NCBI RefSeq assembly: GCF_900176375.1 | Contig: NZ_FWYF01000001.1 | Coordinates: 1,374,449 to 1,438,448, forward strand | Origin: Reichenbachiella faecimaris | GTDB lineage: Bacteria > Bacteroidota > Bacteroidia > Cytophagales > Cyclobacteriaceae | Direction of reading: 5' to 3' | Length of the DNA: 64,000 nucleotides | In this document: piece by piece, positions 34,963-61,549 of the stretch | Position numbering within the stretch: the first letter of the stretch is position 1 | Layout of the letters: every line of letters begins with the position of its first letter | The notes under the pieces: generated by a model | What the model was told of the DNA's origin: nothing | The model's input: only the letters and a program-made list of their open reading frames with translations | Database searches by the model: none | Program-made: the position numbers and the translations under genes

Positions 34963-36432
34963 TTAAGGATTCTGCTCACAAGCCGGATTATAGCTAATTT
35001 CTCCTTGAGGGATATAAAATATATTCCTTGGATCGTTCCAGGGAATTGTTTGAGTTGTCTCTCCTTCTGCTAAGTGAATTCCCTCATAGCTTCGATCTAA
35101 GTCTCTTTTATTTCTAAACTGATCTATTGCCCTGTGCCCTTCATATGCCAGCTCCAGTCGTCGCTCTTCGAGAACAATATCCAAAACCGAACGTCCTCCT
35201 AGATTTGCTAAGGTGTATAATGCCGTTCCAGTGAGGCCCGCTCTTGCTCTTATTACATTTACATCCGTGAGCGCATCAGTATCATTTCCATTTTTGGCAT
35301 ATGCCTCTGCTCTATTGAGGTAGACTTCTGATAGTCTCAGATACTGGGGTGATGCCAAGTTGACCACTCCCTCCTGCCCAGAAAATTTAGTAATGTATCG
35401 AATTGGGTATCCATTTTTTAAATTTCCATTGATGACAATAAGGTCGTTTCTCACATCTGTTGGATGCTGCTGTATCAAATCAAGAAAAGTCTGAGAGACA
35501 AATACCTCTCCCCACCCTGTACCATTTCCATCATCATAATACATAGACCCAATAGACCCTTGTTTTCCTTTATGATCATCAGGGTTGATATGTTTGATAA
35601 TAAAAATTGACTCTGTAGAGTTTTGGGTATTGGCAAAGTTATCTAAGTACACGCCATTGCCAGCCAAACTAAATCTACTTGAGCTTATCACATTATCTGC
35701 AAATTCTATAGCCTTGTCATTATCTTCCATATACAAATACGCACGACTCAACAATGCCCAAGCAGCCTCTTTTGACGCATATTCAACTCCTCTATGCTTA
35801 CTTTGACCCATTAGATCTACGGCTTTCAATAGATCTCCTACCACCGAATCATAGCACTCTCCTACTGTCGACCTGGATTGCACGGCTGGTGAACTTGCAC
35901 TCTTTTTTAAAACAACACCAAGGTTGTCTCTACCGTGCGAATAGGGCTGGGCAAAGAATCTCAACAGATCAAATGTTACTAATGCTCTCAAGAAGTAATT
36001 TTCCCCAATAATATGATCCGTCTCTCCACTCTCTCCTTCCACCGAATTCTCAATAATGGAATTTGCCCCTAACATCAACTTATAGGCGATATACCAGATA
36101 TATGCAGAATTCTCTTGTGTATTTACATGGTTTCTGGTAAATACTAAATATAGTGGGTCAGATGAAAATTGCGTATACATCACATTATCTCCACTAAATT
36201 CACCCATTTGATACAAATGGCGCACGTATGCGTTGTTAAGATTGGGGCCAGCACCACGAAAGCCCTGCGTCACCTTCAGTAGATCATAGTTTCCGTTGGT
36301 TGCCACATCAATTCCATCATCTATGGACAGAAGCACTTCCGTAGAAAGTTTATCAGTTGGTTCAATCTCCAGTTCGCAAGCCGACTGGAATATTAAGCTT
36401 AAACCAGCTATTATATATACAGTTTTTTTCAT
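34963..36432 (-). CDS. susD: SusD-family glycan-binding lipoprotein (second locus)
   Basis: A 489-aa protein with lipoprotein signal MKKTVYIIAGLSLIFQSAC. Family blocks include NYFLRALVTFDLLRFFAQPYSHG, ASKEAAWALLSRAYLYME, YLRLSEVYLNRAEAYAKNG and the C-terminal DIVLEERRLELAYEGHRAIDQFRNKRDLDR. It is a surface partner of the SusC upstream, whose stop is 3 bp away, so the two are one operon. It shares no obvious close similarity with the SusD at 21317, consistent with a different substrate. Confidence 0.96.
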   Translation of the reverse strand: MKKTVYIIAGLSLIFQSACELEIEPTDKLSTEVLLSIDDGIDVATNGNYDLLKVTQGFRGAGPNLNNAYVRHLYQMGEFSGDNVMYTQFSSDPLYLVFTRNHVNTQENSAYIWYIAYKLMLGANSIIENSVEGESGETDHIIGENYFLRALVTFDLLRFFAQPYSHGRDNLGVVLKKSASSPAVQSRSTVGECYDSVVGDLLKAVDLMGQSKHRGVEYASKEAAWALLSRAYLYMEDNDKAIEFADNVISSSRFSLAGNGVYLDNFANTQNSTESIFIIKHINPDDHKGKQGSIGSMYYDDGNGTGWGEVFVSQTFLDLIQQHPTDVRNDLIVINGNLKNGYPIRYITKFSGQEGVVNLASPQYLRLSEVYLNRAEAYAKNGNDTDALTDVNVIRARAGLTGTALYTLANLGGRSVLDIVLEERRLELAYEGHRAIDQFRNKRDLDRSYEGIHLAEGETTQTIPWNDPRNIFYIPQGEISYNPACEQNP

Positions 36433-36435: not shown

Positions 36436-39400
36436 TTAGAATTTTATATTCAATCCAACTATGTATTGTTTGCTGATAGGATACTTGTTGTAAGCCATGC
36501 CTGGCAGGGCATACGACAAATTGGTCATATTTACATCAGCATCCACACCAGAGAATTCGGTAAAAGTGTGCAAGTTATCAACCCCAACACTCAAATTTGC
36601 ACTTCTGATTTTCGCCCAGGCAAATGCTGCCTTCGGCAAGTTGTAAGAGAGCGTGATATTTCTAATTCTCACGTAATCTCCATCTTCAATATATCTTGAC
36701 GAGGTAAAATGAGACCCATCCGTATCCCCACGCTCAAGTACAGGATGAGTCGCTTGATCTCCCGGCTTTTCCCATCGACTCCAACCATCTATCAAGTTCA
36801 TGAAATTTATACCTGTATTGGCTCCATCGGCATCAACAAATTCACGAGTAGAATGATAAATTTTATTTCCACCTTGATAGGTAAGCAAGACGCTTAAAGA
36901 AAGTCCTTTGTAGCTGAACCTATTGGTAAATCCTCCAGAAAATTTCGGTAATGCCGAGGAAATTGGTTGAAAAGTAGCTTCTGAATATACGGAAGTAACC
37001 CTCCGCTCTACCTCATTGCCGGAATTGTCATATACAATTTCTTCCCACATTGGAGCTCCATTGTCACTATTGACTCCCAACCATTTAGGCATGTACCATG
37101 TAAATGCCTCTTGGCCTACCTTGTTAATCTGTTGCACCCCATTGACACTTAGGATTTGTTCGTCTTCAGTATCCGTTATTTTCGTTATTTCGTTTTTATT
37201 ATAGCTTAGATTGAAACTCCCCTCGTATCTAAACTCTCCAAAACTTTTTTGATAGTTGAGTGCAATTTCAACACCTTTGTTATTCATGGATCCAATATTT
37301 TCCCATCTTCTTTCGATTCCTCCCGAAAATGCTAATTGTCTATTAAACAGCATATCATCCACGTTTTTATTATAGACATCTATACTCATAAATAAATCTC
37401 GTCTGATGATAGACATATCCATGCCCAAATTGAGCATAGTGGTGGTTTCCCAGCCTAGTTTATCATTCCCAGCACTTAAAGGTGATGCAGCTGGTTGTCC
37501 GTTATATTGACCCGAAATATTGTAGGTGGCTAGAAAAGGGAATTCGTTCATTTCATCGAAAGCTGAGGATCCGTCATTACCAACCAACCCATAACTAATT
37601 CTAAGTTTTAGTAGATCTACAAAAGATGAATTCTGCAAGAAAGACTCCTTGGATACTACCCAAGCAAAAGAAGCTGCTGGGAATGCTGCGTATTTTTTAT
37701 CTGATGCAAAATTTGAAGAGCCATCTATTCTATAGACAACTGTTGAGAAAAACTTGTCTTTGAATCCATGTGTCAGCTCTCCCATGTAAGAAATCCCTCT
37801 TGAAGTAAATTCTCTCCCCTCTATGAACTGTTTCGTAGAAGCTCCAGATAGCACTTCAATACCAGGACTGAGATTCCATGCATCCACTCCTATGTTCTGT
37901 GTATTGTAGATATCTCCTTCATGCGCAATGAATCCAGCTATATGATGATTTCCAAAATCTTGCGAGGCTCGGATAATATGAGTGGATAATGCACCATACC
38001 CCTCCGACTGACGAACAGTTATTTCCCCATTGTTGGCCACCCCCTCGTGGGAATTGTTTGAGTAATAAGTATCAGTTCTTGAATTAAAAGAATTTAATCT
38101 AGTACGTGTTTCGACACTCAACCAATTTGTTATATTCAGTACCATCCTGGTACTCCAAAAGGTATTGAGGTCTGATGATGATAATTTATTTGATTCCTGA
38201 GAATGCAAGAAATTTCTTCTGAATTGTCCATACCACGGATAAGCTACAGGATCGTAGTCCGACCCATTCAAAAATATAGTACGCCCGTCCTCATAATATG
38301 GATTATCCCAAGGCAAACTCCAATAAGCGTCCTCAAACCAACTATAGTGTTCAAAATTAGACTTTGAATATTGAACATTTACGTCTGTATTAATAGAAAA
38401 TATTTCTGAACCAGAATAGCCAATATTGGTATGAAGATTCAATCTTTCATAATCAGTTTTCCGAAAAGTACCCTCTTCGTCAAAATAATCTACGTCAAAA
38501 ACATATTTGAGCTTTTCGGTCTGACCCAGTACAGAAAATGTATAGTTCTGCAATAAGGCCTTTTGAAATCCTGCATCCAGCCAATCAAAGTTTTGATCTC
38601 TCAAATCTTGAGGGCGTAGCTTTAGAAAACCAATTCTGTCATCTCCCCACATCTTCTCTTGGGTATCATAAAGAGTCTCACCATCCATCATTGAGAAGTT
38701 TCCTCTTGTTGCCTCTTTCAATGCCATTCGACTAGACAGAGAAAACTCTGGGATTGCTGATTTTGATTTTTTTGTGGTAATAATCACTACTCCAGCAGCC
38801 CCCCTTGAGCCATAGAGTCCAATGGCTGCTGCATCTTTCAAAACTGTAACAGTTTCCACATTCGTAGGCACATAATTTCCACCAATCATTCCATCAATCA
38901 CAAAAAGTGGTGGCTTATCTGCATTAATGGAAGTGATCCCTCTAATTCTTATGTCTGGTGCTGCTCCAGGTGCACCACTCGCACTATTCACAGTCATACC
39001 AGCTATTTTCCCCTGAAGCATACTCCCTAAGTTTGAGGAAGTGACAGAAGACTGGATGTCTTTACTATTTAAAGTGACCACGGAAGCAGAAATTTCACTT
39101 TTTGTCTTCTGAGAATAACCAGTGACTATCACCTCTTCCAACGCTGATACATCAACTTCCAGAGTAATAGTCCAGTTCATATGATCCCCTACTACCTTTT
39201 CCTGGCTCATATAACCAACGTATGAAAATACCAGCGTTTCGTTCGCAGATGCCTCTATGCTGAAGTTACCATCGAAATCTGTGGTCGTACCACTACCAGT
39301 CCCTTTCTTGATTATTGTAACTCCAGGAAGGGTGGTGTTATCATCACCAGACATTACTGTTCCTTTAATTACCTGCTGTGAGAAAGCCGGTAAGGAAAGA

Positions 39401-39459
39401 CCAACAAGGAGAACCACAATTATGAGCCTGCCCATTTCTAAAAATCTTATTTTGTACAT
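36436..39459 (-). CDS. susC: SusC-family TonB-dependent outer-membrane transporter (second locus)
   Basis: An ATG at 39459 (MYKIRFLEMGRLIIVVLLVG) gives a clean signal peptide ending LPAFSQQ. The frame is open to 39489, which would add ten residues. About 1007 aa. It has a CarboxypepD-like domain (IKGTVMSGDDNTTLPGVTII), TonB box and plug start (LEEVIVTGYSQKTKSEISASV), SusC signature (GSRGAAGVVIITTKKS), and a beta-barrel ending in VGLNIKF. It probably imports glycan pieces for the GalNAc-type locus. CTTTCAT direct repeats upstream (39473-39492) may bind the DeoR-type regulator. Confidence 0.96.
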   Translation of the reverse strand: MYKIRFLEMGRLIIVVLLVGLSLPAFSQQVIKGTVMSGDDNTTLPGVTIIKKGTGSGTTTDFDGNFSIEASANETLVFSYVGYMSQEKVVGDHMNWTITLEVDVSALEEVIVTGYSQKTKSEISASVVTLNSKDIQSSVTSSNLGSMLQGKIAGMTVNSASGAPGAAPDIRIRGITSINADKPPLFVIDGMIGGNYVPTNVETVTVLKDAAAIGLYGSRGAAGVVIITTKKSKSAIPEFSLSSRMALKEATRGNFSMMDGETLYDTQEKMWGDDRIGFLKLRPQDLRDQNFDWLDAGFQKALLQNYTFSVLGQTEKLKYVFDVDYFDEEGTFRKTDYERLNLHTNIGYSGSEIFSINTDVNVQYSKSNFEHYSWFEDAYWSLPWDNPYYEDGRTIFLNGSDYDPVAYPWYGQFRRNFLHSQESNKLSSSDLNTFWSTRMVLNITNWLSVETRTRLNSFNSRTDTYYSNNSHEGVANNGEITVRQSEGYGALSTHIIRASQDFGNHHIAGFIAHEGDIYNTQNIGVDAWNLSPGIEVLSGASTKQFIEGREFTSRGISYMGELTHGFKDKFFSTVVYRIDGSSNFASDKKYAAFPAASFAWVVSKESFLQNSSFVDLLKLRISYGLVGNDGSSAFDEMNEFPFLATYNISGQYNGQPAASPLSAGNDKLGWETTTMLNLGMDMSIIRRDLFMSIDVYNKNVDDMLFNRQLAFSGGIERRWENIGSMNNKGVEIALNYQKSFGEFRYEGSFNLSYNKNEITKITDTEDEQILSVNGVQQINKVGQEAFTWYMPKWLGVNSDNGAPMWEEIVYDNSGNEVERRVTSVYSEATFQPISSALPKFSGGFTNRFSYKGLSLSVLLTYQGGNKIYHSTREFVDADGANTGINFMNLIDGWSRWEKPGDQATHPVLERGDTDGSHFTSSRYIEDGDYVRIRNITLSYNLPKAAFAWAKIRSANLSVGVDNLHTFTEFSGVDADVNMTNLSYALPGMAYNKYPISKQYIVGLNIKF

Positions 39460-39472
39460 TTTGTAAATTTTT

Positions 39473-39492
39473 CTTTCATATACTTTCATTAC
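39473..39492 (-). promoter_or_regulatory. Candidate DeoR/AgaR-type operator upstream of susC
   Basis: CTTTCATATACTTTCATTAC contains CTTTCAT twice, 10 bp apart, and resembles the repeated TTTC half-sites bound by DeoR-family repressors. It sits within about 35 bp of the susC start, so it may overlap the leader. Related sites are at 39814, 41785, 48636, 51177 and 56092. Confidence 0.4.
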
Positions 39493-39837: not shown

Positions 39838-39873
39838 ATGGAAAAAAAATACAAACAATTTAAAAGTAGTATT

Positions 39874-40827
39874 ATGAAAAAAAATTCTTTTGTCCAAGCA
39901 ACATTATTGAGCGCCACTTTTTGTGCGATTATGTTATTTAGCTCCTGCGGTGACGATTCAGAAGAAACCACTCCCGCTCCAACAGCAGATTTTACGGTAA
40001 CCATAGATGGAAAAACTGTTGCATTCACGAACACCTCTGCAGATGCCGAAAGTTATAGCTGGGATTTCAACGATGGTAATACTTCATCAGAAGAGTCGCC
40101 TAGTCACACATATGAATCCAATGGAACGTACTTAGTCGAGCTTACAGCGACTAATAAGACTGGATCAGAAACAAAGTCCTCAGTTTTGGAAATTATCAAC
40201 ATCAATATTGATGGTGATCTTTCAGATTGGGATGATGTGATTGCAATTGCCAGCATAGGCACGGGGTCTCTTACAAGTGTAAAAATAGACAATCTCTCGA
40301 AGGACAAATTGTTTGTTTACATAGAAGGCACAGCCGATATGACCTCATTTTTTGATCTTTATCTAGATTTTGATTTCGACGCCACAGGCGAATCAGACAC
40401 TACTGGGTATATTGCTAGCGTATACCCAAAGGCTGTTAAAGTAGGCTGCGACGTATTGTTTGAAGGATTTTTTGGTAACGAAAACGCTAGAAATGAATTA
40501 AGCGGAATGTTTTATGGCGTCTTTTTGGCTGATGCTGATGTAGACTTTGGCGCTCGTGACGAACCTACCCTGGATCCTAATATGATCGCATTCTCAGACA
40601 TGCAAGCTGTGGGCAGTGGATTTGCTCTTGAGTTCTCTATTGATCTAAGCTTTCTCCCAGACAGAATTACTGTCAATGATGAAATGCAGCTATTTATAGA
40701 TGAATGGGACAATAAAGCAGACGCACCAGCTGACTGGTGGGCAGGTGGCTTCTCAGGACATTTTCCAGAGCAAGACAATGAAGAGTCGCTACCTATTAGA
40801 TACGAATTTAAAGGCGTTGATAATTAG
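39874..40827 (+). CDS. PKD + CBM9-like surface lipoprotein (putative surface glycan-binding protein)
   Basis: ATG at 39874 is preferred over 39838. It gives a lipoprotein signal (MKKNSFVQATLLSATFCAIMLF, SSC), and the predicted transcription start would leave almost no leader for the earlier ATG. Residues ~30-110 are a PKD domain (NTSADAESYSWDFNDGNTSS). Residues ~120-317 are a CBM9-like beta-sandwich (IDGDLSDWDDVIAIASIGTG ... LYLDFDFDATGESDTTGYIA). The same module occurs five or more times in the 1792-aa protein at 56171 and in the relic at 48260. It probably sits on the cell surface and binds the locus substrate. It diverges from susC and converges on the DeoR gene across a shared terminator. 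Confidence 0.82.
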   Translation: MKKNSFVQATLLSATFCAIMLFSSCGDDSEETTPAPTADFTVTIDGKTVAFTNTSADAESYSWDFNDGNTSSEESPSHTYESNGTYLVELTATNKTGSETKSSVLEIININIDGDLSDWDDVIAIASIGTGSLTSVKIDNLSKDKLFVYIEGTADMTSFFDLYLDFDFDATGESDTTGYIASVYPKAVKVGCDVLFEGFFGNENARNELSGMFYGVFLADADVDFGARDEPTLDPNMIAFSDMQAVGSGFALEFSIDLSFLPDRITVNDEMQLFIDEWDNKADAPADWWAGGFSGHFPEQDNEESLPIRYEFKGVDN

Positions 40828-40971: not shown

Positions 40972-41745
40972 TCACGCGAGTAGTATTTCAACATTATGCT
41001 CATCAAGTTTTGCTCGGTCTTGTGGTTCAATTGCATCTGTAACCACTGTAGTCACATCTGACACGTCGCAAAAGAAAGCAAAACTTCTTCTGGAGAATTT
41101 GGTTGAGTCAGTCAACGCTATAATTTCTTTTGAAATCTGGATCATTTTTTCGTTAAACTGAGCCTCTTCTAAATTAGGAGTATACAACCCTATACTTGTA
41201 TCAAACCCATCTGCTCCTAAAAACACCTTATCTACATTCAAGTTTTTTAGTCCCTTTTCTGCCATTGGCCCTACAAGGGATTGAGAATTTTGTCGCAAAA
41301 AGCCGCCTGGTATAATCAAATTGACATTGGGCTTATTCATCAGCAAGATCACAATATTTATCGCATTGGTAATTACGGTCAGGTTTTTTATCCCATCCAA
41401 ATTTTTCACCATTTCTGCCGTCGTTGTTCCTGAATCAATCAATATAATATCCCCGTCTTTCACCAATTCTGCCGCCTTCTTACCTATCCTTATTTTTTCA
41501 TCTAAATGAATTTTATCCTTTGACGACAACTCTAAATCAATACCAACCCTCCCTTCAAACTTCATTGCGCCTCCACGAGCACGGATAAGTAATTGCTTTT
41601 TTTCTAATTGATCTAAATCATTTCGAATTGTAACCTCACTGACACTAAAGAGATTACTCAGCTCATCAACGAAGACCTCCGAATTTTCATTGACCATTTG
41701 CAAAATGCTTTTTCTTCTGGAAACGGTCGCATGCTTATTTCTCAT
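40972..41745 (-). CDS. agaR: DeoR-family transcriptional regulator (AgaR-like)
   Basis: A 257-aa protein of standard DeoR length. The N-terminal helix-turn-helix is RRKSILQMVNENSEVFVDELSNLFSVSEVTIRNDLDQLEKKQLL, the DeoR signature. The C-terminal sugar-phosphate sensor domain has DSGTTTAEMV, NAINIVILL and LGADGFDTSIGLYTPN. The family represses sugar catabolic operons and is released by a phosphorylated sugar. It is divergent from agaS with 184 bp between, and AgaR is the known regulator of aga operons in enterobacteria, so the symbol is by context. It probably acts at the TTTCRT-type sites scattered through this locus. Confidence 0.88.
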   Translation of the reverse strand: MRNKHATVSRRKSILQMVNENSEVFVDELSNLFSVSEVTIRNDLDQLEKKQLLIRARGGAMKFEGRVGIDLELSSKDKIHLDEKIRIGKKAAELVKDGDIILIDSGTTTAEMVKNLDGIKNLTVITNAINIVILLMNKPNVNLIIPGGFLRQNSQSLVGPMAEKGLKNLNVDKVFLGADGFDTSIGLYTPNLEEAQFNEKMIQISKEIIALTDSTKFSRRSFAFFCDVSDVTTVVTDAIEPQDRAKLDEHNVEILLA

Positions 41746-41929: not shown

Positions 41930-43078
41930 ATGTTAGGTTACACAAAAGAAGAACTGCAAAAAATTCGTGGAGTTGATACAGCCAGCGAAATCTGCCAACA
42001 ACCGCAACTTTGGCTCAAAATTTGGCAACTCATAGTTGATCAAAAAAAAGAATTAGAATCCTTTCTAGAAGAAGCAGTTCAAAACTCACAAAATATAATC
42101 CTTACTGGAGCAGGTACCAGCGCATATATTGGGCTATCTCTTGAGGGAATTTTTAGAAATAAAACTGGTGTAATCACCAAATCCATTTCAACAACACATC
42201 TGGTTTCACATCCGAAAGACTATTTTTCCAGCGAAACCCCAGTACTTCTCATATCCTTTGCCAGATCAGGCAACAGTCCTGAAAGCAACGCAACTGTAGA
42301 ACTGGCGGACAAGCACTGCCTAAAATGCTACCACCTTATCATTACTTGCAACGCTGACGGAGAACTAGCCAATCATACCACCAAAGGCAAAAAACATTTG
42401 ATCTTACTTCCCAACGAATCCAATGACAAAAGCCTGGCTATGACCAGTAGCTACACAGGGATGTTGCTTGCAGGACTGCTTACGGCTCGAATCAAGGAAA
42501 TACTCAGCCTTGAAGCCAAAGTAAAAACACTCGCACACTACGGCGACATCATTCTAAACAAGTTTCACTACAAAATAAAAGAGGCAGCCAGTTACAACTT
42601 CAATAGAGCCGTGTTTTTAGGATCAGGTCCATTGTATGGCACCGCCAAAGAATCCCATCTAAAGCTACAAGAATTGACGGATGGAAAAATTATTTGCAAA
42701 CATGATTCATTTCTTGGTTTCCGACACGGCCCCAAAGCCGTTATTGACAACTCCACTCTAGTTGTCTACCTACTTTCAAATTCTGACTATGTGACTAAGT
42801 ATGAAAAAGACCTAATCAAATCTATGGATAAGGGTAAAAAATCAATGCTGCAAATCGGGATTATGGAAAAGCCTTTAGTCGACATTGAGCTTGATATGGC
42901 AATTGTACTCAATTCTAAAGCCCTACTTGACGAAGAAATGTTAACTATCTGTTCTATAATCCTCGCCCAGGTATTAGGTTTTTATAAGGCAGTAGAGCTC
43001 GGCTTATCGCCTGATAACCCTTCAGAAAGTGGAGCCATATCCAGAGTAGTAGAGGGTGTAACCATTTACAACAATTAA
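41930..43078 (+). CDS. agaS: AgaS-like galactosamine-6-phosphate deaminase/isomerase (SIS domains)
   Basis: A 382-aa protein with two SIS domains, the AgaS architecture. Recognisable blocks are ILTGAGTSAYIGLSLEG (sugar-phosphate loop), STTHLVSHPKDYF, LLISFARSGNSPES, MTSSYTGMLLAG, FLGSGPLYGTAKESHLKLQELTDG and HDSFLGFRHGPKAVI. Characterised AgaS deaminates galactosamine-6-P to tagatose-6-P plus ammonia. It acts in the cytosol. It opens the rightward operon, and the kinase and aldolase that follow are the next two steps, which strongly supports this assignment over a GlmS-like role. Confidence 0.93.
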   Translation: MLGYTKEELQKIRGVDTASEICQQPQLWLKIWQLIVDQKKELESFLEEAVQNSQNIILTGAGTSAYIGLSLEGIFRNKTGVITKSISTTHLVSHPKDYFSSETPVLLISFARSGNSPESNATVELADKHCLKCYHLIITCNADGELANHTTKGKKHLILLPNESNDKSLAMTSSYTGMLLAGLLTARIKEILSLEAKVKTLAHYGDIILNKFHYKIKEAASYNFNRAVFLGSGPLYGTAKESHLKLQELTDGKIICKHDSFLGFRHGPKAVIDNSTLVVYLLSNSDYVTKYEKDLIKSMDKGKKSMLQIGIMEKPLVDIELDMAIVLNSKALLDEEMLTICSIILAQVLGFYKAVELGLSPDNPSESGAISRVVEGVTIYNN

Positions 43079-48259: not shown

Positions 48260-48615
48260 TTAATCAATAATTAACCATTGCTTAGATAACTCAAGACTAG
48301 TGTAATCTTCACCCTCGTTTGTCAGATAACCATACTCTTCCCTACCATCTGCTCCAGCAGATTCGTGCGCTTCCGGTGAGTAGCCAGTAGTTGCACCTCC
48401 ATCACTATTTAGATACATTTGTGCAAATCCATACAGGGCATATCCCCTTCTACATAGAAATAAATATAAGCTAAGTCTGATGCGGCTTTTACCATTGAGA
48501 CAACTCCTGTATTGTCAGAATTTCTTTCTGCCAATACCAGCACAGCATCCCAATCTGAGAAATCTCTATCAATCAAAATTTTAAAAAACTTTTCCCATAA
48601 TTCTATTATTAACAA
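48260..48615 (-). pseudogene. Frameshifted CBM9-like module relic
   Basis: From 48615 leftward the frame reads ILIDRDFSDWDAVLVLAERN ... MVKAASDLAYIYFYVEGDM, which parallels IDGDLSDWDDVIAIASIGTG in the lipoprotein at 39874. After a frameshift near 48420 the next frame continues MYLNSDGGATTGYSPEA and GADGREEYGYLTNEGEDY, the matching middle of the module. It stops at 48260. It has no signal peptide and lacks the C-terminal third. It is the remains of a paralogous surface glycan-binding protein. Its upstream region still carries two TTTACGAAA sites. Confidence 0.78.
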
Positions 48616-48635
48616 TATTTTGTAATTATTAATTA

Positions 48636-51196: not shown

Positions 51197-51297
51197 TTAA
51201 ATATTTTGTTTGCTTTGTAATTAAGTAAATAACGAATCGTTTCGCTCAACTATGAACTTATCTTCCGTTAATGCAAAAACAAATGGCTTAATAAGTA

Positions 51298-52201: not shown

Positions 52202-53722
52202 TCAATTGGTATACAATTTCATATTTCCCAGATTTGTCATCAAAATACATAACCCTTCTGGACTATTAAGCTTGAATGAAAAAAAACTTTTAGACTCTAT
52301 TTCATTCTCTTTAAAGACTATTTTACCGTGCAACGTGTAAACATATACTTCCTTAAAAAAACCTTGCTTTGCTGTTAATTTTATTCGCCCGCTATCCATA
52401 GATATGGAATAGTTCGAATCCAATAATTCATTGACTCCTAATACTTCTGAAGGCTCATACGCATACGGCGTATTCTCTGTTCCATAATAAGATATAGTCT
52501 GCGTTTCTAAAATTTGATCGCTTTCAATAGTTAGTACCGGATCGTTGCTTCCAGCGGCTACGTTGCATACAATGGTATGACCTGGCAACAGTAGTTTAAG
52601 GCTCTCAGAAGCCCTCACTCCATTCACTGTAACAAAAGCATCACTATAGAAAGGTGCCACACCTACATTTTCTACTTCTACTACTGAGTGCCCCTCACCA
52701 GATTTAAATGAATTTATCTTAAACTTATACCCCATATATCTACTGGCCTCTGCTATGCGTTCGATAGATTGATATTGCGTCTGATCATTGCCCAAAATAT
52801 AGGACATATGAAAACGCTCAACAGCACTTTCAAAGGACTCTCCATATGCCCCTGTATCAGGAATCAGTACACTTTGTTGATCGTACGTTGAATAGTAGCT
52901 GAACTCCCCTCCAGCAGGTGCCCATTGGTATCTATTTCTATCAAAAAAATTCCAGCTTGATTCATTATAATTCGCGTGGTCTTTGTGCATAAAAGAATCA
53001 TCAAAAAGGCCAAAGTTAATGTCCTTCAGTTCAGATTTGGTTTCGAAAGGAGAATATGCTGCACCAGCCGCATCAATTGAAATACTCCAAGTTGTACTCA
53101 CAAAAACAGATGCCATTTTATTAAAAAATTCTTCTTGATATTCCATACTTGGAAAAGTCTCACCCAAGACAAAAGGGCCATCATAGATATGGTACTCAGC
53201 CCAGAGGCCAAATCCCGTCTGCACAAATGCTAACCTCGGATCTTGATCATAGTTGGCGGCAAATTTCTCATAGAAGTCCAAAATACATCGTTGCAATTCT
53301 TCATGAGTCCAATCTGGAAACCATGTAGTGTTTCCTTCAGAAATACCCTGGGTTTCTTCATAGTCACTGAGATCTTTAATATACTGAGGCACCGTGGTTG
53401 TCTTTCCAGGGTAGGAGAACCTAAATCTCAAAACAGCTTGATGATTTCGGCTAGCGATCTCATCCAACAGTTCTTCCACCACGATCCAATCGTAAGTATC
53501 CTTCGCAACAACCACTTCCGCATAGCTCATATACGAATATTCCAGTGAGATCACATCTGTATTGATTTTACTATTTGTTGGCCAAAGCACAATCCCAGTC
53601 ATGGGCTGTACACCAGATATATCTTGATCGATTGTTATCTGCTTTAGATTTTGTCCTATCGAAACACATACAATTAAAAATACTGTAACTCCAGTTATTA
53701 ATAGTTTTTTCACGAAATTCAA
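52202..53722 (-). CDS. Secreted DUF4832-type protein, putative glycosidase-like barrel
   Basis: A 506-aa protein with a signal peptide (ends CVSIGQ). The body looks like a TIM barrel of the DUF4832 type. Blocks are LEYSYMSYAEVVVAKDTYDWIVVEELLDEI, AVLRFRFSYPG, AFVQTGFGLWAEYHIYDG, FGLFDDSFMHKDH and GGEFSYYSTY. GLWAEYH aligns with GAWGEWY of the next gene and GTWGEWY at 56171, so the Glu in W-x-E is conserved in all three. The C-terminus (~430-506, YSISMDSGRIKLTAKQGF ... VYVYTLHGKIVF) resembles a degenerate type IX sorting domain. It has no NPERG motif and is the most divergent of the three. I know of no established function. The context suggests cutting the locus polysaccharide. Confidence 0.72.
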   Translation of the reverse strand: MNFVKKLLITGVTVFLIVCVSIGQNLKQITIDQDISGVQPMTGIVLWPTNSKINTDVISLEYSYMSYAEVVVAKDTYDWIVVEELLDEIASRNHQAVLRFRFSYPGKTTTVPQYIKDLSDYEETQGISEGNTTWFPDWTHEELQRCILDFYEKFAANYDQDPRLAFVQTGFGLWAEYHIYDGPFVLGETFPSMEYQEEFFNKMASVFVSTTWSISIDAAGAAYSPFETKSELKDINFGLFDDSFMHKDHANYNESSWNFFDRNRYQWAPAGGEFSYYSTYDQQSVLIPDTGAYGESFESAVERFHMSYILGNDQTQYQSIERIAEASRYMGYKFKINSFKSGEGHSVVEVENVGVAPFYSDAFVTVNGVRASESLKLLLPGHTIVCNVAAGSNDPVLTIESDQILETQTISYYGTENTPYAYEPSEVLGVNELLDSNYSISMDSGRIKLTAKQGFFKEVYVYTLHGKIVFKENEIESKSFFSFKLNSPEGLCILMTNLGNMKLYTN

Positions 53723-53756: not shown

Positions 53757-55736
53757 TTATTCGGTCAGAATAAGTTTGGTGATCCGAGTCCGACCATTGC
53801 TATCGAGAACTGAAATGATATAAGTACCTACTCGCATTCCTTCCTGATCAATCTTCAGCTTCTTCTTATTTGTCTTAGTTTCCAAAACTTTCACTCCATT
53901 CATATCATGAATAGTAACTTGTCTGACCGCATGGTCTTTAAAATGAATATAAACATCTTCATCGTCAGAAGGGTTCGGATACAACAATAGTGTATCAAGA
54001 TCATTCTGACTTATTGACGTTATGGTAGCTGAAGTGGTGGCACTGGCTAGATCAGACCAAGGTGAATAACCATATTCATTCACTGACCTTATTCTATAAT
54101 GAAAAGTTGTTCCTGTAGTTAAATTTGTATCATTCCACGTAGTCAAATCAGCATCTATCACGGCCACTTCAAACCATTCTTCCGTGTCGCCGTGAGATCT
54201 TATCAACTGAAAGGAGTTTTCATCGTCTGAAAGGTCATTCCAAGTCAAGGAAATTTCTCCTGAATCGCCAGATTCAGCAATTAAATTACCTGGCGTAATT
54301 GGGAGCGTTTCACTTCCGCCGTTTCCAATTGATACAATGAGATTTAATTCATTTACACCAGATTCGGTATCATACTCACCAAAATGAGCCAACTGTATAG
54401 AATAAGCAGGGTCGTCCGCCAAGCTCATCGTCTGATCCTTGAATCGAATACCTACCATATAGTTGCCGTTGTCCAAGAATGCTGGGACTACCACTGATCC
54501 AGACAATGAAGTTTCGCCTGGTTGCCAATGCCTTATATCAGTGTTGCTTCCGCCATAATCAACTGCTGTTCTTGTCCCTGAAGACAAACTGGTTAGCACC
54601 AGTTGTATATCCTTGTTTTGGGTAGGGGCTGCATACCCTTCATTGACAAATACAAACTCGAAATTCAGCGTTCCTCCTACATCTATGGTTTCCGAGATTT
54701 CAGCCTGCTTCAAACTCAATCTATAACCCAACGCTAAGTTGATTTCGTCATGACATTCTTGTTCTCTCCATTTGGTATAGACCTGCCTGTTGTAGTCCCT
54801 ATTCAGATAGGTCCAATGCAATTCCTTCATTCTTGGAACACTCAATTCGCAATCACTATACTCATTAGAAGCATCACAAGTTTCCCCTCCAGAAATGGTA
54901 TATTTTGTTGACTGGCTCAAATAGCTAATATCCTCGTCCAAATTTGTATATGTACCATAATCGGATGCATTGGCTAAAAAACAATCATTATGATGGCCAA
55001 TCCTTGATTTGTTAGTGCCGTCATAAGCCTCATCATCAGAAATAGGCTGATCACTTTGTGTGGCATTTTGAATAATAGCTGGTGTTCTTCCTTGCACAGC
55101 AATATTTTCAGGGACAGCATCTAAAAGTGCTTCAATCACCATTCGCCTGTTCTGCTGATCCTCCTCAAAAGCAATGAAATTTGCTCCAGCAAAATTTTCA
55201 GTGTAATACCACTCACCCCAGGCACCAATAAATCCAGCTTGAATGCCTGCAATTACATCACTGTTCTCAGTGAGCACAGGTTTAAGTGAAGCAATATGCG
55301 CTAGGACAATTTCGGGTGTTGCATCCCAAATCTCAGCATCTTGAGATGCGCTATAAGCAAAGCGTATAACGCATTTCACTCCAGCACTTCTTATAGCATC
55401 AAAATCATCTTGCATTTTCTCCAAATACACAGCACCTACCTCACTTTCATCTAAAAATTGATGAAGGTAAAACAGGCGTAGAATTAATGTAATATTGTCT
55501 TCAACTCTGTTCCTTGTTAGCTCGTCGACAGCTAGTGGAATGTAATCACCTGAAAGATTACTTCCTCCAGTAAAACTATAATAGTCATCATACCAGCCCC
55601 TTTCCGGATTAGCAATCTCAGATGATGATGACACATACTGAGTGATTATATTTTGCGTGTAGCCGTATGTGCCCGCAAAAGTCTCATATAAAAACAAGCA
55701 CGCAGATAGATATTTCCTAACTCTTCTGAAATTCAT
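53757..55736 (-). CDS. Secreted DUF4874/DUF4832 protein with FN3 and type IX sorting domain
   Basis: A 659-aa protein. It has a hydrophobic N-terminus (to about residue 28, TYGYTQ), then the DUF4874 part with NPERGWYDDYYSF, ITLILRLFYLHQFL, VKCVIRFAYS and GIQAGFIGAWGEWYYTENF. The DUF4832 part follows (GHHNDCFLANASDYGTY, YTISGGETCD, MKELHWTYLNRDYN). A beta-sandwich (~340-475), an FN3 domain (~485-575, NLIAESGDSGEISLTWNDL) and a type IX sorting domain (LLLYPNPSDDEDVYIHF) end it. The conserved aromatic cleft residues and W-x-E are consistent with a glycosidase. It is 34 bp upstream of the 52202 gene in the same direction. Function is not established. Confidence 0.8.
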   Translation of the reverse strand: MNFRRVRKYLSACLFLYETFAGTYGYTQNIITQYVSSSSEIANPERGWYDDYYSFTGGSNLSGDYIPLAVDELTRNRVEDNITLILRLFYLHQFLDESEVGAVYLEKMQDDFDAIRSAGVKCVIRFAYSASQDAEIWDATPEIVLAHIASLKPVLTENSDVIAGIQAGFIGAWGEWYYTENFAGANFIAFEEDQQNRRMVIEALLDAVPENIAVQGRTPAIIQNATQSDQPISDDEAYDGTNKSRIGHHNDCFLANASDYGTYTNLDEDISYLSQSTKYTISGGETCDASNEYSDCELSVPRMKELHWTYLNRDYNRQVYTKWREQECHDEINLALGYRLSLKQAEISETIDVGGTLNFEFVFVNEGYAAPTQNKDIQLVLTSLSSGTRTAVDYGGSNTDIRHWQPGETSLSGSVVVPAFLDNGNYMVGIRFKDQTMSLADDPAYSIQLAHFGEYDTESGVNELNLIVSIGNGGSETLPITPGNLIAESGDSGEISLTWNDLSDDENSFQLIRSHGDTEEWFEVAVIDADLTTWNDTNLTTGTTFHYRIRSVNEYGYSPWSDLASATTSATITSISQNDLDTLLLYPNPSDDEDVYIHFKDHAVRQVTIHDMNGVKVLETKTNKKKLKIDQEGMRVGTYIISVLDSNGRTRITKLILTE

Positions 55737-56170: not shown

Positions 56171-59100
56171 ATGAAAAAAACACTACTATTGATTATTGTT
56201 TTCCTCAACCTTATTAATTTAAGTACGCAGAAAATGTATGGTCAAACCTTAAAATCATCCTCCTATTCTGAGGATCTTGACGCCATTCTGAATCCAGAAA
56301 GAGGATTTTACAAACACACCGAGTCGCACAACGGATTTCCATCTGTCTTTGTTAACTCATACGCTCAATTGTCTTCAGCGCAACTTGACGGTTTTTTGTC
56401 TGAGAACATTTCGCTTGTCTTAAGACTGTTTTACATTCACGAATTTGCAAATGTAGATACCATTAGCCAGGCTTATCAGACCAAAATGCAAACGGATTTT
56501 GATCTTTTGAGACAAAAGGGTATGAAAGCTATCGTAAGATTTGCGTATAGCAACATTCAAGATTCATTAGACCTGAATGTTACTCCAGAGCGTATTGATG
56601 GGCACCTTCAGTCTGTCAAGTCTATATTGGCTGCCAATCAGGACATAATTCTTGTGGTCCAGGCGGGATTGATTGGGACTTGGGGAGAATGGTATTATAC
56701 CAATAACTTCGGAAATGCAGGGTCGATTTCAGCTGCTGACTATGAAAAAAGGTTTCAGGTAATCACCTCACTGTTGGACAATGTGCCTGCAGGTGTTGCT
56801 GTACAATTGAGAACTCCCGATTATAAGAGACGATATTTGGAGGCTATCGGAGAAAGTACCAGTGCAATATCCGCTTCGGAGGCATATAATCCCGCACTGG
56901 TGAAAGCACGCCTGGGTCATCACAATGACTGTGTTCTTTCCACGCCAGATGGTAGAGTACATGAAATAACCATACCAAAGAGTGATTTTTCTAGCCTTGC
57001 CGACACCTTGTTTGTTGGCTATAGAGGAATGTGGGATACTTACGGAACTGCTGATACTACACTCTGGGCGAATAGTACACAAAGCCAGTTGCCAATTAAT
57101 TCGGATCCGTTGGCTCAATATGTATTGGGTTCAAACAGTATTTCTGGTGGATGGGATGCCCTACCTAATTTGGTGACTTTTGTCAATGGAACCGTGCAGG
57201 AATTTAAAATGGCGGACGATGGTACCAATCTCTACATCAGAGTAGCCGAAAGTGGCTATCTCGCGTCAGGGAAATTGAGATTCGATATTTTGATCAATAC
57301 CGACGAAAATATAAGTACAGGATGGGCAGACGCTACCTTTTGGACTTCATCAGGGGCAGACTATCTGATACAGAAGTATTTAGATGCGTCTGTGACCTTA
57401 AATCAGCATACTGGAAGTGGTAGCGGGTTTACCTGGAATGCTTCAAGTTCTACCATTAGTTCTACTTTGGCATACACGGATTCTTTTGATGATCAGGGAA
57501 CTTTCGTGACCACAGACGACATCAGCTGGGTGGCCGACGATAGCAACTATGTCATCCAAGGTGGTGAAACCTGTTTGCCGACCAATCAAAACGATTGCGC
57601 CAAGTCTGAGGCAAGATTGGCCCTTCATAAGTATACATATTTGAATAGCCTCTATCAGCCAGATGTGTTGGATAAATGGGAAACTCAGGGATGTCTGGAT
57701 GATATTGAAAATGAATTAGGCTATCGGATCAAATTGAATGCGGCTTCAATACAAGGATCAGTAGCTGCAGGTAGTAAGCTTTTTGTTTCGCTAGATATTA
57801 CCAATCAGGGTTATGCAGCCCCGGCTCGATTAAGACCGCTTTACCTGGTACTGCGAGACTCGATCACGTCTGCCGAGTATAGTATCCCGTTTGAAAGCCC
57901 TGCATCTGATGTTCGTATGTGGTTGTCTGGCAATACCGTGTTCAACGAATCGCTAGTAGTACCAGCTTCGGTACCGACTGGGACTTACAAACTATTCTTA
58001 AACCTTCCGGATGCGTCGTCATCTTTGGCTAGTAATGTTAATTATAGCATTCGTTTTGCAAATCAGAGTACCTGGGAGCCGACTACAGGATACAATGATT
58101 TGAGTTTATCGACCGAAGTTACAAGTGCTGGCTCACCATCAGTACCTACTATAGTAGTAGATGGAAGTTTGGCAGATTGGTCAAATGTAGACGCTATTGG
58201 TATAGGCACAGGAGCCGTAGGTGCAGTCAAAGCACACGATATTGCGGATACTTTGTTTGTCTCTGCGGCGGGAACGTTGGGGAATGGGTTTAATTTATAT
58301 ATAGATGCCGATGGACAAAGTTACACAGGGTATGAGGGGTGGTCAGAAGGCGCTGATTATAAACTGTCTGCCGACAAACTTTATCGTTTTGAATTTGATG
58401 AGTCTTGGGTTGAAATCGCCAGCTCAATCACCTATGTCCAAAACTCGACCTCTTTTGAGGTAAAGATTCCTAAAAATCTTTTATACGGATTAGACGAAAC
58501 CGTCAAAGTGGGTTATGAGAATTTGGTTAGTGAAGTGAGTTCAGGCAAGGCTCCTTCAGCCGGAAACTTGTTTTCTTATGCGCTTGATTATGCTGTTTCC
58601 GTACCAAGGCCTGCGATTGCGATCACTGCCGATGGCAGCTCAGCTGATTGGGCCTATGTAGATCCTTTGGTGCAAACCTCTGGAACACTTAAACTTCTTA
58701 AGGCTTTTGATGATCAAACTAACATCTATGTACTAGTAAAAGGTGATTTGACAAATGTCACATCAAATTATGATATGTATATGAATACTGACGGCAGTAC
58801 ACAGACAGGTTTGATAGATCCAGGTTTTTGGTCTACCACGGGACTGGATTACGCACTTCTTTCTGGGGTGATCTATGAGCATGATTCGGTGACGTCAAAG
58901 GCGAATAATGGAGGAAACCCAAATGCCTGGGCCTGGACTGTTGCTAGTGCATCTCCAACTATTCAAACGGCTTCGGACTCAAGTACAAGGGAGATTATTA
59001 TTCCTAAAAGTTTATTGAATGAACTCAGTATTGGATCATTTGTAGATATTGGATACAGAAAAATAAATTCAGGTACGGTTGTGCACAAACTACCAGCGTC

Positions 59101-61549
59101 TGGAGGCTTGGCCAGATACGCTATAGAAACACCATATGTTGAGGATCTGGAATCCCTGATCATTTCCGATGATGTTACTAATCTCACGTTGACGGTTCAA
59201 GGTGGCGTAATAACTACGACCTATGATGCACTACTTGATGCTGATAACAGTGCAGGTACTGGTTATTCCGATGGAGCCAGCGTAAGTGGAGCAGATTACT
59301 TGATTCAAAACGGGATTCTATATAGCTACGGTGGCGATGGAACTTCTTGGGCATGGAACACTACTGGAGTTACAATTACAGTGACAGACTCAGAGATTGA
59401 CCCAAATATTTCTCAGCGACAAATATCTGTCCCTAAGTCAGGTTTGAATTTGACATCGTCTGGTGCTACCATCAGATTGGTTTATAAGAGTACAGTTAGT
59501 TTTGCAGAAACCGCAAGGTTACCTGAATCTGGAATGGAGAGTTACGTTACCGTGAAAGCCTATATCCCAGAACTAGAAACCTATACTATTTCCGATGATG
59601 GAATCAATATTTACCTCACAGTAGAAGGATCAAATGTGACGGATACTTATGAGGCCTTTATCAATATCGATAATAACACAACTACAGGATATATAGATGC
59701 CACATGGACGACCATGGGAGCAGATTACCTAATCAAAGATGGCCTACTTTACCAGTATTCTGGTAGTAGCAACGAATGGGGTTGGACAAGTGTCCCTTCG
59801 GCTATTAATGTGATCAATACTCAGTTGACCGTTGATGTCAACAAAAGAGAGATTGCCATTCCCAGGGTTTCTATGTCCACTCTTGTGATCGATGACATCA
59901 TTACCTCGGGTTATAGAAATATTATTGGAATTGATCTAGGGGCATACATACCGGGTACTGGTGGGATGAAGCCACATACGGTATCGAATTCTTATGTGTC
60001 CGACCTTCAGGAAATAGTCATTACGGATGATCAGGATAGCGTTTACATTACTGTCAAGGGAGGTAACCTTGCCTCCACCTATGACCTTTTTATCAATAGT
60101 GATGAAAATGCGACCACAGGCTATTATGTACCAGCATGGGATGCCTCTGGTGCAGACCTTTTGGTACAGAATGGGACGTTGTATGATTACTCCGGAACTA
60201 GTAATGGATGGGGTTGGACTGGCAGCGCAAATAGTGTGGCTATACAAGACACTGACCTTGGAGGTGGCTTGCACCAAAGAAAAATCAGTGTTCCTAGAGC
60301 AGCTATTGCCAGCACCACGCTGACTGTAAGTGTTGGATATGGAAATACTAGTGGAGGTAACATCGTGGCACAACTTCCTGCTGATGGAGATATGTTGGCC
60401 TATGTACTTACGCCTTTAGAATTGACAATTGGTGAAGTGGGCAAGATTACCAACGATCAGGTCGATGGTAGTGAATGGACTTCAGTTTCGTTGACTAATA
60501 CCTACACTAACCCAGTGGTAATCATGAGTCCATTGAGCTACGAAAATGGACAACCAGCTACTTTGAGAGTTAAAGATGTTACATCCAGTTCTTTTAAATA
60601 TCAAATAGATGAATGGGACTATCTGAACGGCTCACACAGTGAAGAAAATTTCTTCTATCTGGTGGTAGAAGCGGGTGTTTATGAGTTAGATGGAGGCGTA
60701 ACTTTGCAGGCAGGGGCTACCTCTTCGGACGACGATTGGGCCAGTGTCGCTTTTACAGAGAGCTTTAGTACAACGCCGTTGGTATTTGCGCAAACGGTGA
60801 CATACAATGATGCCGCAGCACTTACCACGCGTATTCGCTGGATTGATAATGAAGCATTTGACTTGAAAGTGCAAGAAGAAGAGGGTAGCGACAATGAACA
60901 TGCTCTGGAAACAGTAGCATGGCTAGCGCTATCTGAAGGTGTGGGCAATATTGGCCGAACTTATGAGGTAAATGGTACGTCCCGGAACTATGATCATATT
61001 TTCTTCGAAAAATATCTGACCAACACTTACGACGACCCTCTACTCTTTGCGCATATGCAAACTTCATACGGTAGTGATGCCTGTGCTTTGAGGTACGATA
61101 ATCTGGACGAAGATGTGGTTGAGTTCAAGGTAGAAGAGGAAAAGTCGGCCGATTTTGAAACCAATCATACCAACGAAGAGATCGGCTTTTTCGTGCTCGA
61201 TAGTGCTGGTGTTATTAAAGGCAAGCAAGTGTATCAGGCTGGGGCAAGAATTAAAATTTCGGGCACAATAAGCGTAGAGCAGGAGGTCATTGAATCGACC
61301 TTTGAATATAATACATATCCTAATCCTGTATTTGATAATCTTAATATAGCTTATCAAATCAATCAAGAAGGATCAGTGAGTATCGAGATTTACGGTCTAG
61401 ATGGTCAAAAGCATTTTTCCCAAAGTGAAGTGTTTGTGGAAGGTCATTACGCACGATCAATTGCCATATCACACGTACCTAAAGGAATAGCTATTTTGAG
61501 AATACAGGCTCATGGTAAAGTGTATACTCACAAACTACTAGTAAAATAA
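56171..61549 (+). CDS. Giant secreted DUF4874/DUF4832 protein with CBM9-like array, lectin-like repeats and type IX sorting domain
   Basis: A 1792-aa protein. Signal peptide to ~25. DUF4874 part is 35-235 (NPERGFYKH, ISLVLRLFYIHEF, VVQAGLIGTWGEWYYTNNF). The DUF4832 part starts GHHNDCVLS and is interrupted at ~258-436 by one CBM9-like unit in shifted phase. It resumes at DDISWVADDSNYVIQGGETC and runs to ~655. Five tandem CBM9-like modules start near 662 (DGSLADWSNV), 820 (DGSSADWAYV), 992, 1134 and 1278, each with a Y(D)..(I/L)(D/N).D....TGY core and (R)EI.IPKS. Three lectin-like repeats (~1417-1700; WTSVSLTNTYTNPVVIMSPL, WASVAFTESFSTTPLVFAQ, YDHIFFEKYLTNTYDDPLLF) resemble the H-type lectin fold. 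A type IX sorting domain closes (YPNPVFDNLNIAY). It is probably surface-bound and attacks the locus polysaccharide. Catalysis is unproven. Confidence 0.82.
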   Translation: MKKTLLLIIVFLNLINLSTQKMYGQTLKSSSYSEDLDAILNPERGFYKHTESHNGFPSVFVNSYAQLSSAQLDGFLSENISLVLRLFYIHEFANVDTISQAYQTKMQTDFDLLRQKGMKAIVRFAYSNIQDSLDLNVTPERIDGHLQSVKSILAANQDIILVVQAGLIGTWGEWYYTNNFGNAGSISAADYEKRFQVITSLLDNVPAGVAVQLRTPDYKRRYLEAIGESTSAISASEAYNPALVKARLGHHNDCVLSTPDGRVHEITIPKSDFSSLADTLFVGYRGMWDTYGTADTTLWANSTQSQLPINSDPLAQYVLGSNSISGGWDALPNLVTFVNGTVQEFKMADDGTNLYIRVAESGYLASGKLRFDILINTDENISTGWADATFWTSSGADYLIQKYLDASVTLNQHTGSGSGFTWNASSSTISSTLAYTDSFDDQGTFVTTDDISWVADDSNYVIQGGETCLPTNQNDCAKSEARLALHKYTYLNSLYQPDVLDKWETQGCLDDIENELGYRIKLNAASIQGSVAAGSKLFVSLDITNQGYAAPARLRPLYLVLRDSITSAEYSIPFESPASDVRMWLSGNTVFNESLVVPASVPTGTYKLFLNLPDASSSLASNVNYSIRFANQSTWEPTTGYNDLSLSTEVTSAGSPSVPTIVVDGSLADWSNVDAIGIGTGAVGAVKAHDIADTLFVSAAGTLGNGFNLYIDADGQSYTGYEGWSEGADYKLSADKLYRFEFDESWVEIASSITYVQNSTSFEVKIPKNLLYGLDETVKVGYENLVSEVSSGKAPSAGNLFSYALDYAVSVPRPAIAITADGSSADWAYVDPLVQTSGTLKLLKAFDDQTNIYVLVKGDLTNVTSNYDMYMNTDGSTQTGLIDPGFWSTTGLDYALLSGVIYEHDSVTSKANNGGNPNAWAWTVASASPTIQTASDSSTREIIIPKSLLNELSIGSFVDIGYRKINSGTVVHKLPASGGLARYAIETPYVEDLESLIISDDVTNLTLTVQGGVITTTYDALLDADNSAGTGYSDGASVSGADYLIQNGILYSYGGDGTSWAWNTTGVTITVTDSEIDPNISQRQISVPKSGLNLTSSGATIRLVYKSTVSFAETARLPESGMESYVTVKAYIPELETYTISDDGINIYLTVEGSNVTDTYEAFINIDNNTTTGYIDATWTTMGADYLIKDGLLYQYSGSSNEWGWTSVPSAINVINTQLTVDVNKREIAIPRVSMSTLVIDDIITSGYRNIIGIDLGAYIPGTGGMKPHTVSNSYVSDLQEIVITDDQDSVYITVKGGNLASTYDLFINSDENATTGYYVPAWDASGADLLVQNGTLYDYSGTSNGWGWTGSANSVAIQDTDLGGGLHQRKISVPRAAIASTTLTVSVGYGNTSGGNIVAQLPADGDMLAYVLTPLELTIGEVGKITNDQVDGSEWTSVSLTNTYTNPVVIMSPLSYENGQPATLRVKDVTSSSFKYQIDEWDYLNGSHSEENFFYLVVEAGVYELDGGVTLQAGATSSDDDWASVAFTESFSTTPLVFAQTVTYNDAAALTTRIRWIDNEAFDLKVQEEEGSDNEHALETVAWLALSEGVGNIGRTYEVNGTSRNYDHIFFEKYLTNTYDDPLLFAHMQTSYGSDACALRYDNLDEDVVEFKVEEEKSADFETNHTNEEIGFFVLDSAGVIKGKQVYQAGARIKISGTISVEQEVIESTFEYNTYPNPVFDNLNIAYQINQEGSVSIEIYGLDGQKHFSQSEVFVEGHYARSIAISHVPKGIAILRIQAHGKVYTHKLLVK

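Follow-up and report, generated by a model that had tools for sequence, protein, structure and literature searches.

A stretch of 64,000 nucleotides from Reichenbachiella faecimaris (contig NZ_FWYF01000001.1, positions 1,374,449 to 1,438,448), here called the window, carries at window positions 34963-61549 a polysaccharide-utilisation locus in which genes of amino-sugar catabolism stand beside three genes of the DUF4832 type. The home genome is 4.7 Mb in 7 contigs and 97% complete, and its SusC/SusD pairs and type IX tails agree with Bacteroidota. Adjacent SusC and SusD genes (34963-39489) together with carbohydrate enzymes of the glycoside hydrolase (GH) types GH36-like and GH109 mark the region as a polysaccharide-utilisation locus. 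The preliminary description of this DNA had listed AgaS, a PfkB kinase, a GatY/KbaY-like aldolase, an AgaR-like regulator, GH109 and a GH36-like enzyme, and all of them were recovered with Pfam or NCBIfam models. It had also stated that a classical endo-acting enzyme is absent; no classical endo-glycosidase family was matched among the 14 proteins of 34963-61549 that were scanned with Pfam. In its place it had put three DUF4874/DUF4832 proteins as candidate depolymerases.

Two of these proteins belong to both families. The protein encoded at 53757-55736 (minus strand) has a DUF4874-DUF4832 barrel followed by an fn3 domain and a type IX secretion tail (PF16173, 133.8 bits; PF16116, 185.8 bits; PF18962, 39.1 bits). 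The protein encoded at 56171-61549 (plus strand) is 1792 amino acids long and combines DUF4874 and DUF4832 with an H-type lectin region and a type IX secretion tail (PF16173, 125.9 bits; PF16116, 166.3 bits; PF18962, 34.5 bits). Both are candidate depolymerases. The H_lectin model scored 23.3 bits with the whole protein and 28.6 bits with the sub-region 60368-61240, against a cut-off of 24; H-type lectins bind N-acetylgalactosamine (GalNAc). An insertion of about 180 residues (residues about 255-440) lies inside the barrel region of the 56171-61549 protein, between the strand-6 aspartate and the strand-7 glutamate, and is absent from the other two proteins.

The third protein, encoded at 52202-53722 (minus strand) and judged secreted by eye, did not live up to the preliminary assignment, as it scored 22.4 bits with PF16116 (cut-off 29.2) and had no DUF4874 match. 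Profile comparison with the main family by hhalign gave a probability of 97.2 and an E value of 3.1e-11, and aligned its GLWAEYH motif opposite GxWGEWY and its GGEF motif opposite GGET. In its own alignment 7 of 11 proteins, itself counted, match DUF4832 at E 0.01. On the strength of the profile comparison it is called a divergent relative and not a member of the DUF4832 family. Scanning genome contigs with the family profile gave at least 513 relatives, of which the best 80 by similarity to the 53757-55736 protein were analysed with their surroundings; relatives of the 52202-53722 protein at 48-58% identity occur in 10 of these 80 loci. The three proteins are the only DUF4832 matches in the home genome, and none of them matches PF03537 (GH114). 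As previously described, the translations carry GAWGEWY, GTWGEWY and GLWAEYH, and two of the proteins carry NPERGWY and NPERGFY.

The fold of the 53757-55736 protein was predicted with AlphaFold2 (AF2) for residues 30-470 using an alignment of 70 sequences. Alignment A2 represents 68 of 93 loci (58 of the 80 genome loci and 10 of 13 viral loci), picked by eye against near copies. The model is a (beta/alpha)8 barrel followed by a beta-sandwich, with a predicted local distance difference test (pLDDT) score of 96.2 and a predicted template modelling (pTM) score of 0.94. A triosephosphate isomerase (TIM) barrel with a following beta domain in a DUF4832 protein is the architecture of SIR_1591 of Streptococcus intermedius. 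Among the residues invariant in 70/70 sequences are E146, D222 and E256 of the model, which correspond to E175, D251 and E285 of the 53757-55736 protein. E146 lies nine residues past strand 4 (133-137), D222 after strand 6 (217-221) and E256 after strand 7 (253-255). E175 is the glutamate of the W-x-E motif and E285 the glutamate of GGE. The preliminary description had singled out W-x-E as the shared motif, which is there but incomplete, since the tryptophan is nearly, not fully, invariant in the 70-sequence set.

The same three residues are invariant in 23/23 proteins of the phylum in a separate alignment, divergent ones included. That alignment holds 22 of the 26 DUF4832 matches of a 395-genome sample and one copy from genome G158 found by BLAST; it leaves out G251 and G084, judged by gene order to be apparent near copies of G055 and G289, as well as G384 and the second G206 site, both weak. 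The 52202-53722 protein gave a barrel-like model with pLDDT 77 from 11 sequences. Foldseek against the PDB matched the 53757-55736 model to GH30, GH5 and GH35 enzymes, beta-glucosidases and PslG, and the 52202-53722 model to PslG, GH35 enzymes and beta-amylase. TM-scores were modest, about 0.1-0.5 over long alignments, so the fold match backs the superfamily and not any one family. No DUF4832 relative was found among PDB sequences at E 1 with two profiles, and phmmer matches of the 53757-55736 protein were confined to its fn3 region and tail.

Two glutamates near strands 4 and 7 would fit clan GH-A, whose members are retaining and mostly act on beta-linkages, and also GH14, which is inverting and acts on alpha-1,4-linkages. 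The prediction mostly agrees with the earlier proposal of glycosidases, in that a TIM barrel resembling such enzymes pairs the W-x-E glutamate with a second invariant glutamate. Together the model and the invariant residues argue strongly for the DUF4832 proteins being glycosidases. Catalysis would proceed through E175, after strand 4, and E285, at strand 7; their action may be of the endo type and directed at an alpha-1,4 linkage. One could instead suppose that they are non-catalytic, surface-bound proteins that bind polymer; the beta-sandwich at the C-terminus and the lectin-like region would suit such a role, and the candidate enzymes are known from sequence and model. This is scarcely to be expected, given that both barrel glutamates are invariant in every sequence of the set and that SIR_1591 is reported to be active (PMC12345266).

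SIR_1591 is a distant member of the family of the window's secreted candidate enzymes. A 2025 report describes that the purified protein (residues 28-468) disrupts preformed Pel aggregates like PelAh, and gives beta-amylases and beta-galactosidases as its structural neighbours (PMC12345266). The view in the preliminary description that these domains have no established function is therefore out of date. Compared by description, SIR_1591 and the window proteins share DUF4832, a TIM barrel and a link to a galactosamine-type polymer. They differ in that SIR_1591 carries a transmembrane helix and is encoded among pel synthesis genes (PMC12345266), whereas two of the window copies, both within a catabolic locus, bear additional modules and a type IX tail. 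It is thus already published that a DUF4832 glycosidase attacks a polymer of the galactosamine type; the catabolic setting of SusCD, AgaS and DUF4832 seems new within the literature searched, in which no utilisation locus for Pel or galactosaminogalactan was found. One table names GH135 and GH109 (PMC11653725).

The genes that would process the products of such enzymes fill the rest of the locus. A putative AgaS, a galactosamine-6-phosphate deaminase/isomerase with a SIS domain, is encoded at 41930-43078 (plus strand); its top NCBIfam match by far is TIGR02815 agaS_fam, at 367 bits, below that model's cut-off of 529.2. It is followed by a PfkB-family sugar kinase (43101-44072, plus strand; PF00294, 160.4 bits), which would phosphorylate tagatose-6-phosphate and/or galactosamine, and by a GatY/KbaY-type class II aldolase (44069-44890, plus strand; PF01116, 283.6 bits). 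NCBIfam models for tagatose- and fructose-bisphosphate aldolases scored similarly with the latter, below nearly all of their own cut-offs; its presumed substrate is tagatose-1,6-bisphosphate. An AgaR-like DeoR-family regulator (40972-41745, minus strand; PF00455, 179.4 bits) scored 251.7 bits with NF040755 AgaR, against a cut-off of 260. A second PfkB-type kinase gene at 51295-52146 (plus strand) is decayed, with several stops and frame changes (tblastn to the G158 and L103 kinases, E about 1e-25). It is intact in genome G158 (L030:12343-13272) and at L103:1524-2450, where it sits between AgaS and PfkB. Since this kinase is decayed, the remaining PfkB protein or a housekeeping phosphofructokinase may cover one phosphorylation step.

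Uptake would involve the SusD-like glycan-binding protein (34963-36432, minus strand; PF07980, 93.9 bits; PF14322, 66.6 bits) and the SusC-like TonB-dependent importer (36436-39489, minus strand; PF13715, PF07715), which are 59% and 49% identical to their counterparts in the related locus of G158. A PKD-domain protein (39838-40827, plus strand; PF18911, 59.7 bits) is from its sequence a probable surface glycan-binding lipoprotein, its location judged by eye, and has relatives in 20 of the 80 genome loci. A remnant of a gene of this type lies at 48332-48618 (minus strand; tblastn 27-46% to proteins from related loci, best E about 3e-6). An EamA-family inner-membrane transporter (48843-49724, minus strand; PF00892, 82.2 bits) has relatives at 41-64% in related loci. 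A GH109 enzyme of the alpha-N-acetylgalactosaminidase type (49787-51139, minus strand; PF21252, 288.4 bits) and a GH36-like, or Melibiase, protein (45934-48027, plus strand; PF02065, 46.3 bits, cut-off 27) complete the glycosidases. The second is, by its sequence match, a probable exo-alpha-galactosidase/N-acetylgalactosaminidase. An amidohydrolase (Amidohydro_2) with an apparent signal sequence (44901-45962, plus strand; PF04909, 64 bits) has relatives at 56-66% in G158, G108, L069 and L071, and in only 2 of the 80 genome loci. Its gene adjoins the GH36-like gene in the window, G108, L069 and L071 and lies elsewhere in the locus in G158; speculatively, it might be a periplasmic amino-sugar de-N-acetylase. 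The amidohydrolase, the EamA transporter, the decayed kinase and the PKD lipoprotein remnant go beyond the preliminary description.

A 484-amino-acid protein without a Pfam match is encoded at L071:19589-21043, after the GH36-like gene. Genes for 485 and 492 amino acids occupy this position in L091 and L095, and in the window no counterpart was noticed behind its GH36-like gene.

The link between DUF4832 and amino-sugar catabolism was surveyed in an even set of 395 genomes of the phylum, with AgaS relatives taken at E 1e-40. DUF4832 occurs in 18 genomes, an AgaS relative in 20 and both in 5. With the window's genome left out, 4 genomes have both versus 0.8 expected (hypergeometric p 0.006), at distances of 2.4, 4.6, 17.4 and 31.6 kb. 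By simple arithmetic the chance of at least 3 of 4 pairs lying within 20 kb, as 3 do, is about 3e-6. A GH109 protein close to that of the window (E 1e-90) occurs in 64 of the 395 genomes; the 17 other DUF4832 genomes account for 7 of these (p 0.01), and three of the 7, G091, G379 and G108, have the gene less than 20 kb from DUF4832. Genome G158 has in one stretch GH36-like, GatY, PfkB, AgaS, DeoR, three DUF4832-type, PKD, SusC, SusD, EamA and amidohydrolase genes, with 38-66% identity for the non-DUF4832 proteins; its GH109 gene is on another contig. The preliminary description had named co-occurrence of DUF4832 genes with agaS/GH109 as a check; co-occurrence with AgaS does exceed chance, if only in a subset of the DUF4832 genomes.

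Among the 80 loci, which are not independent as many are close kin, 12 have AgaS, GatZ or GatY near DUF4832. Ten of these have AgaS, at 37-56% identity; about 0.015 AgaS genes would be expected in the 1.36 Mb searched, at a background rate taken from a stricter threshold than that of the locus BLAST. GH109 at 40% identity or more is found in 5 loci, a GH36-like protein at 40% or more in 6 and SusC/SusD-type proteins in 26, and 16 loci have any catabolic enzyme. GatZ/KbaZ, the partner subunit of tagatose-bisphosphate aldolase, adjoins AgaS in L067, G009, G108 and G171. On a tree of 85 proteins, in which just 4 of the 18 Pel-type loci described below are represented, the catabolic label requires 14 changes; the label was assigned by hand and covers loci with SusC/SusD or GH109 without AgaS. 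At least 10 of the changes are forced by well-supported branches. Catabolic linkage therefore lies on several separate branches and is not one inherited block. A Pfam scan of 10 of 117 DUF4832 neighbours revealed no shared theme, a GGDEF protein near DUF4832 in L084 being the sole hint.

A second setting connects DUF4832 with Pel synthesis. In Flavobacterium enshiense (L072, 11609-21275) the neighbours of the DUF4832 gene encode DUF2194, a 656-amino-acid protein without a Pfam match, GH114 (80.2 bits, cut-off 27), a PelG-like exporter (26 bits, cut-off 29) and a DUF3492/GT4 protein (125.6 bits for DUF3492). The DUF3492 glycosyltransferase we take to be of the PelF type. At least one relative of the L072 DUF2194, GH114, PelG or PelF protein is found in 18 of the 80 loci, and PelF or PelG in 14 of the 80. 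Fourteen of the 18 Pel-type loci are from Flavobacterium, and none of the 18 also has catabolic genes. DUF4832 genes are likewise reported beside pelDEADAFG in streptococci and clostridia (PMC7112168). In genome G055 (L031:5473-19384) the last gene of a Wzy-type cluster for polysaccharide synthesis, which also encodes glycosyltransferases and a chain-length tyrosine kinase, is a DUF4832 gene that spans the end of L031; gene order in G251 is similar.

Such neighbourhoods raise the question of whether the window's proteins act on exopolysaccharide of the cell itself, remodelling or releasing it as hydrolases encoded in synthesis clusters do, instead of providing food. The copies near synthesis genes in Flavobacterium and G055 and those in the Gram-positive pel clusters (PMC7112168) would suit this role. 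We nevertheless regard it as very improbable for the window copies, which stand among SusCD, AgaS, kinase and aldolase genes. The home genome contains neither PelF-type DUF3492 nor GH114 (PF03537), other polysaccharides of its own not having been searched for. Because Pel-type genes are lacking, the polymer is probably foreign, made by other microbes. No GatZ/KbaZ and no full-length match of the NagA/AgaA type was found in the home genome (best TIGR00221 score 27 bits, below cut-off). AgaS with or without AgaA has been read as a sign of GalNAc or galactosamine use, and AgaS without it as one of galactosamine use (PMC5583593). AgaS without AgaA/NagA fits the galactosamine branch only, and a partly deacetylated polymer such as Pel.

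Taken together, we consider it fairly likely that the whole locus serves the utilisation of a foreign polysaccharide, a Pel-like or galactosaminogalactan-like polymer composed of galactosamine (GalN) and GalNAc, and a galactosamine-type polymer is the likely substrate of the DUF4832 proteins. Several results weigh against this reading. No association between DUF3492 (26 genomes) and DUF4832 (18) emerged from the 395-genome sample, where no genome has both (1.2 expected, p of none 0.29); the DUF3492 matches of family f24, mostly tandem genes, may not be Pel genes. Of 12 genomes chosen by the author from the 20 with AgaS, 9 lack full-length NagA (10 by the curated cut-off), and 2 of the 5 genomes that combine AgaS with DUF4832 possess it. 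Since so many AgaS genomes lack NagA, its absence is unspecific and counts as weak support, not as proof, for a deacetylated substrate. AgaS is missing from 13 of the 18 DUF4832 genomes at the threshold used, so the association holds for a subset. Neither Pel-type nor catabolic markers are found in 46 of the 80 loci, some of which have SusC/SusD and other locus proteins; only 40 of the 80 reach 21 kb, so some marker-free loci will be incomplete. In the window itself one kinase is decayed. The glycosidases that are neighbours in fold mostly cleave beta-linkages. Pel is reported to be alpha-1,4-linked, deletion of SIR_1591 to have no phenotype, and the S. intermedius polymer to be GalNAc-rich and to resist the galactosaminidase Ega3 (PMC12345266).

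A DUF4874-DUF4832-dockerin protein is reported among rumen cellulosomal proteins (PMC7480376), which suggests that the family may serve other glycans. The target could then be a different GalNAc-containing glycan, such as glycoprotein O-glycans, lipopolysaccharide or capsule, which the DUF4832 proteins would attack as glycosidases. Other glycans also carry the terminal alpha-GalNAc or galactose on which GH109 and GH36-type enzymes act, and the DUF4832 genomes without AgaS and the DUF4832 gene at the end of the G055 Wzy-type cluster, with similar order in G251, are in keeping with such a target. BT4243-GH109 is reported from a mucin locus (PMC11992087). We hold this explanation to be unlikely on balance. 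Both the presence of Pel-type genes close to DUF4832 in 18 of the 80 loci and the reported activity of SIR_1591 on Pel aggregates (PMC12345266) point to a homopolymer of the galactosamine type, and the 14 scanned proteins of the locus include no peptidase or sialidase family.

If the locus does serve a Pel-like or galactosaminogalactan-like polymer, its genes suggest a complete route, in an order of steps that we infer from their families. Secreted DUF4832 barrel enzymes would cut the polymer outside the cell, and SusC/SusD and the PKD lipoprotein would capture the fragments and take them up. In the periplasm GH109 and the GH36-like enzyme would trim these to monosaccharides, and the EamA transporter or one of the major facilitator superfamily would bring the amino sugar in. 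The PfkB kinase would phosphorylate it, AgaS would convert galactosamine-6-phosphate to tagatose-6-phosphate, and a kinase and the GatY-type aldolase would take tagatose-6-phosphate to triose phosphates. The AgaR-like protein would act as repressor of the gene set. The preliminary description was largely right in its idea, which is less new than was thought, and its interpretation as a whole is partly supported.

Known systems resemble parts of this route. The aga/gam genes of Escherichia coli likewise comprise an AgaR-like regulator, AgaS and an aldolase of the tagatose-bisphosphate type (PMC3668189). They differ from the window in that no phosphotransferase system (PTS) family was matched among the 14 scanned proteins, the home genome has no full-length match of the AgaA/NagA type and no GatZ/KbaZ, and the window pathway is coupled to SusCD and secreted candidate depolymerases. 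The mucin-GalNAc utilisation locus BT4240-4250 of Bacteroides thetaiotaomicron has SusCD, GH109 and cytoplasmic amino-sugar metabolism in common with the window, but it has an APH-family GalNAc kinase and a mucin protease, and that report names none of AgaS, DUF4832 and DUF4874 (PMC11992087). GH114, GH135, GH166 and GH191 are barrel enzymes on galactosamine polymers and use an Asp/Glu pair (PMC12054363), whereas two glutamates and one aspartate are invariant in the window family. A GH114 gene stands in an operon beside DUF4832 in L072 and its relatives; the three window proteins have no Pfam GH114 match.

A broader proposal, about which we are somewhat more doubtful than confident, is that DUF4832 adds to GH114, GH135, GH166 and GH191 another family of alpha-1,4-galactosaminan hydrolases, evolved independently and with two glutamates in an inverting layout like that of beta-amylase. 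It would be used in making Pel, by phages in stripping Pel, and in eating Pel, for which this locus would be a dedicated system that also covers galactosaminogalactan. Pel and galactosaminogalactan occur in the biofilms of bacteria and fungi, and research into anti-biofilm agents includes enzymes able to dissolve these polymers. If the proposed role of the locus is true, some bacteria graze on biofilm matrices, and such loci offer secreted and periplasmic enzymes already combined into sets for breaking the polymer down to monomers. A family of 'unknown function' could then be assigned by a simple assay.

DUF4832 genes are also found on viral contigs, at 13 loci on 12 contigs. Ten neighbouring proteins from six viral loci were scanned. 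The scanned neighbours in L150, L151, L153 and L156 matched no tail family, and at E 1e-5 the L159 copy has no relative in the phage collection searched. In L159 (1015-6278) the DUF4832 gene directly follows a gene for a tail-fibre-like protein, and in L147 (3681-8383) it precedes a gene for a tail-fibre-assembly-like protein. Judged by these gene neighbours, both copies fit the description of candidate phage depolymerases. The top structural match in BFVD was a DUF4832 protein of an Ackermannviridae phage.

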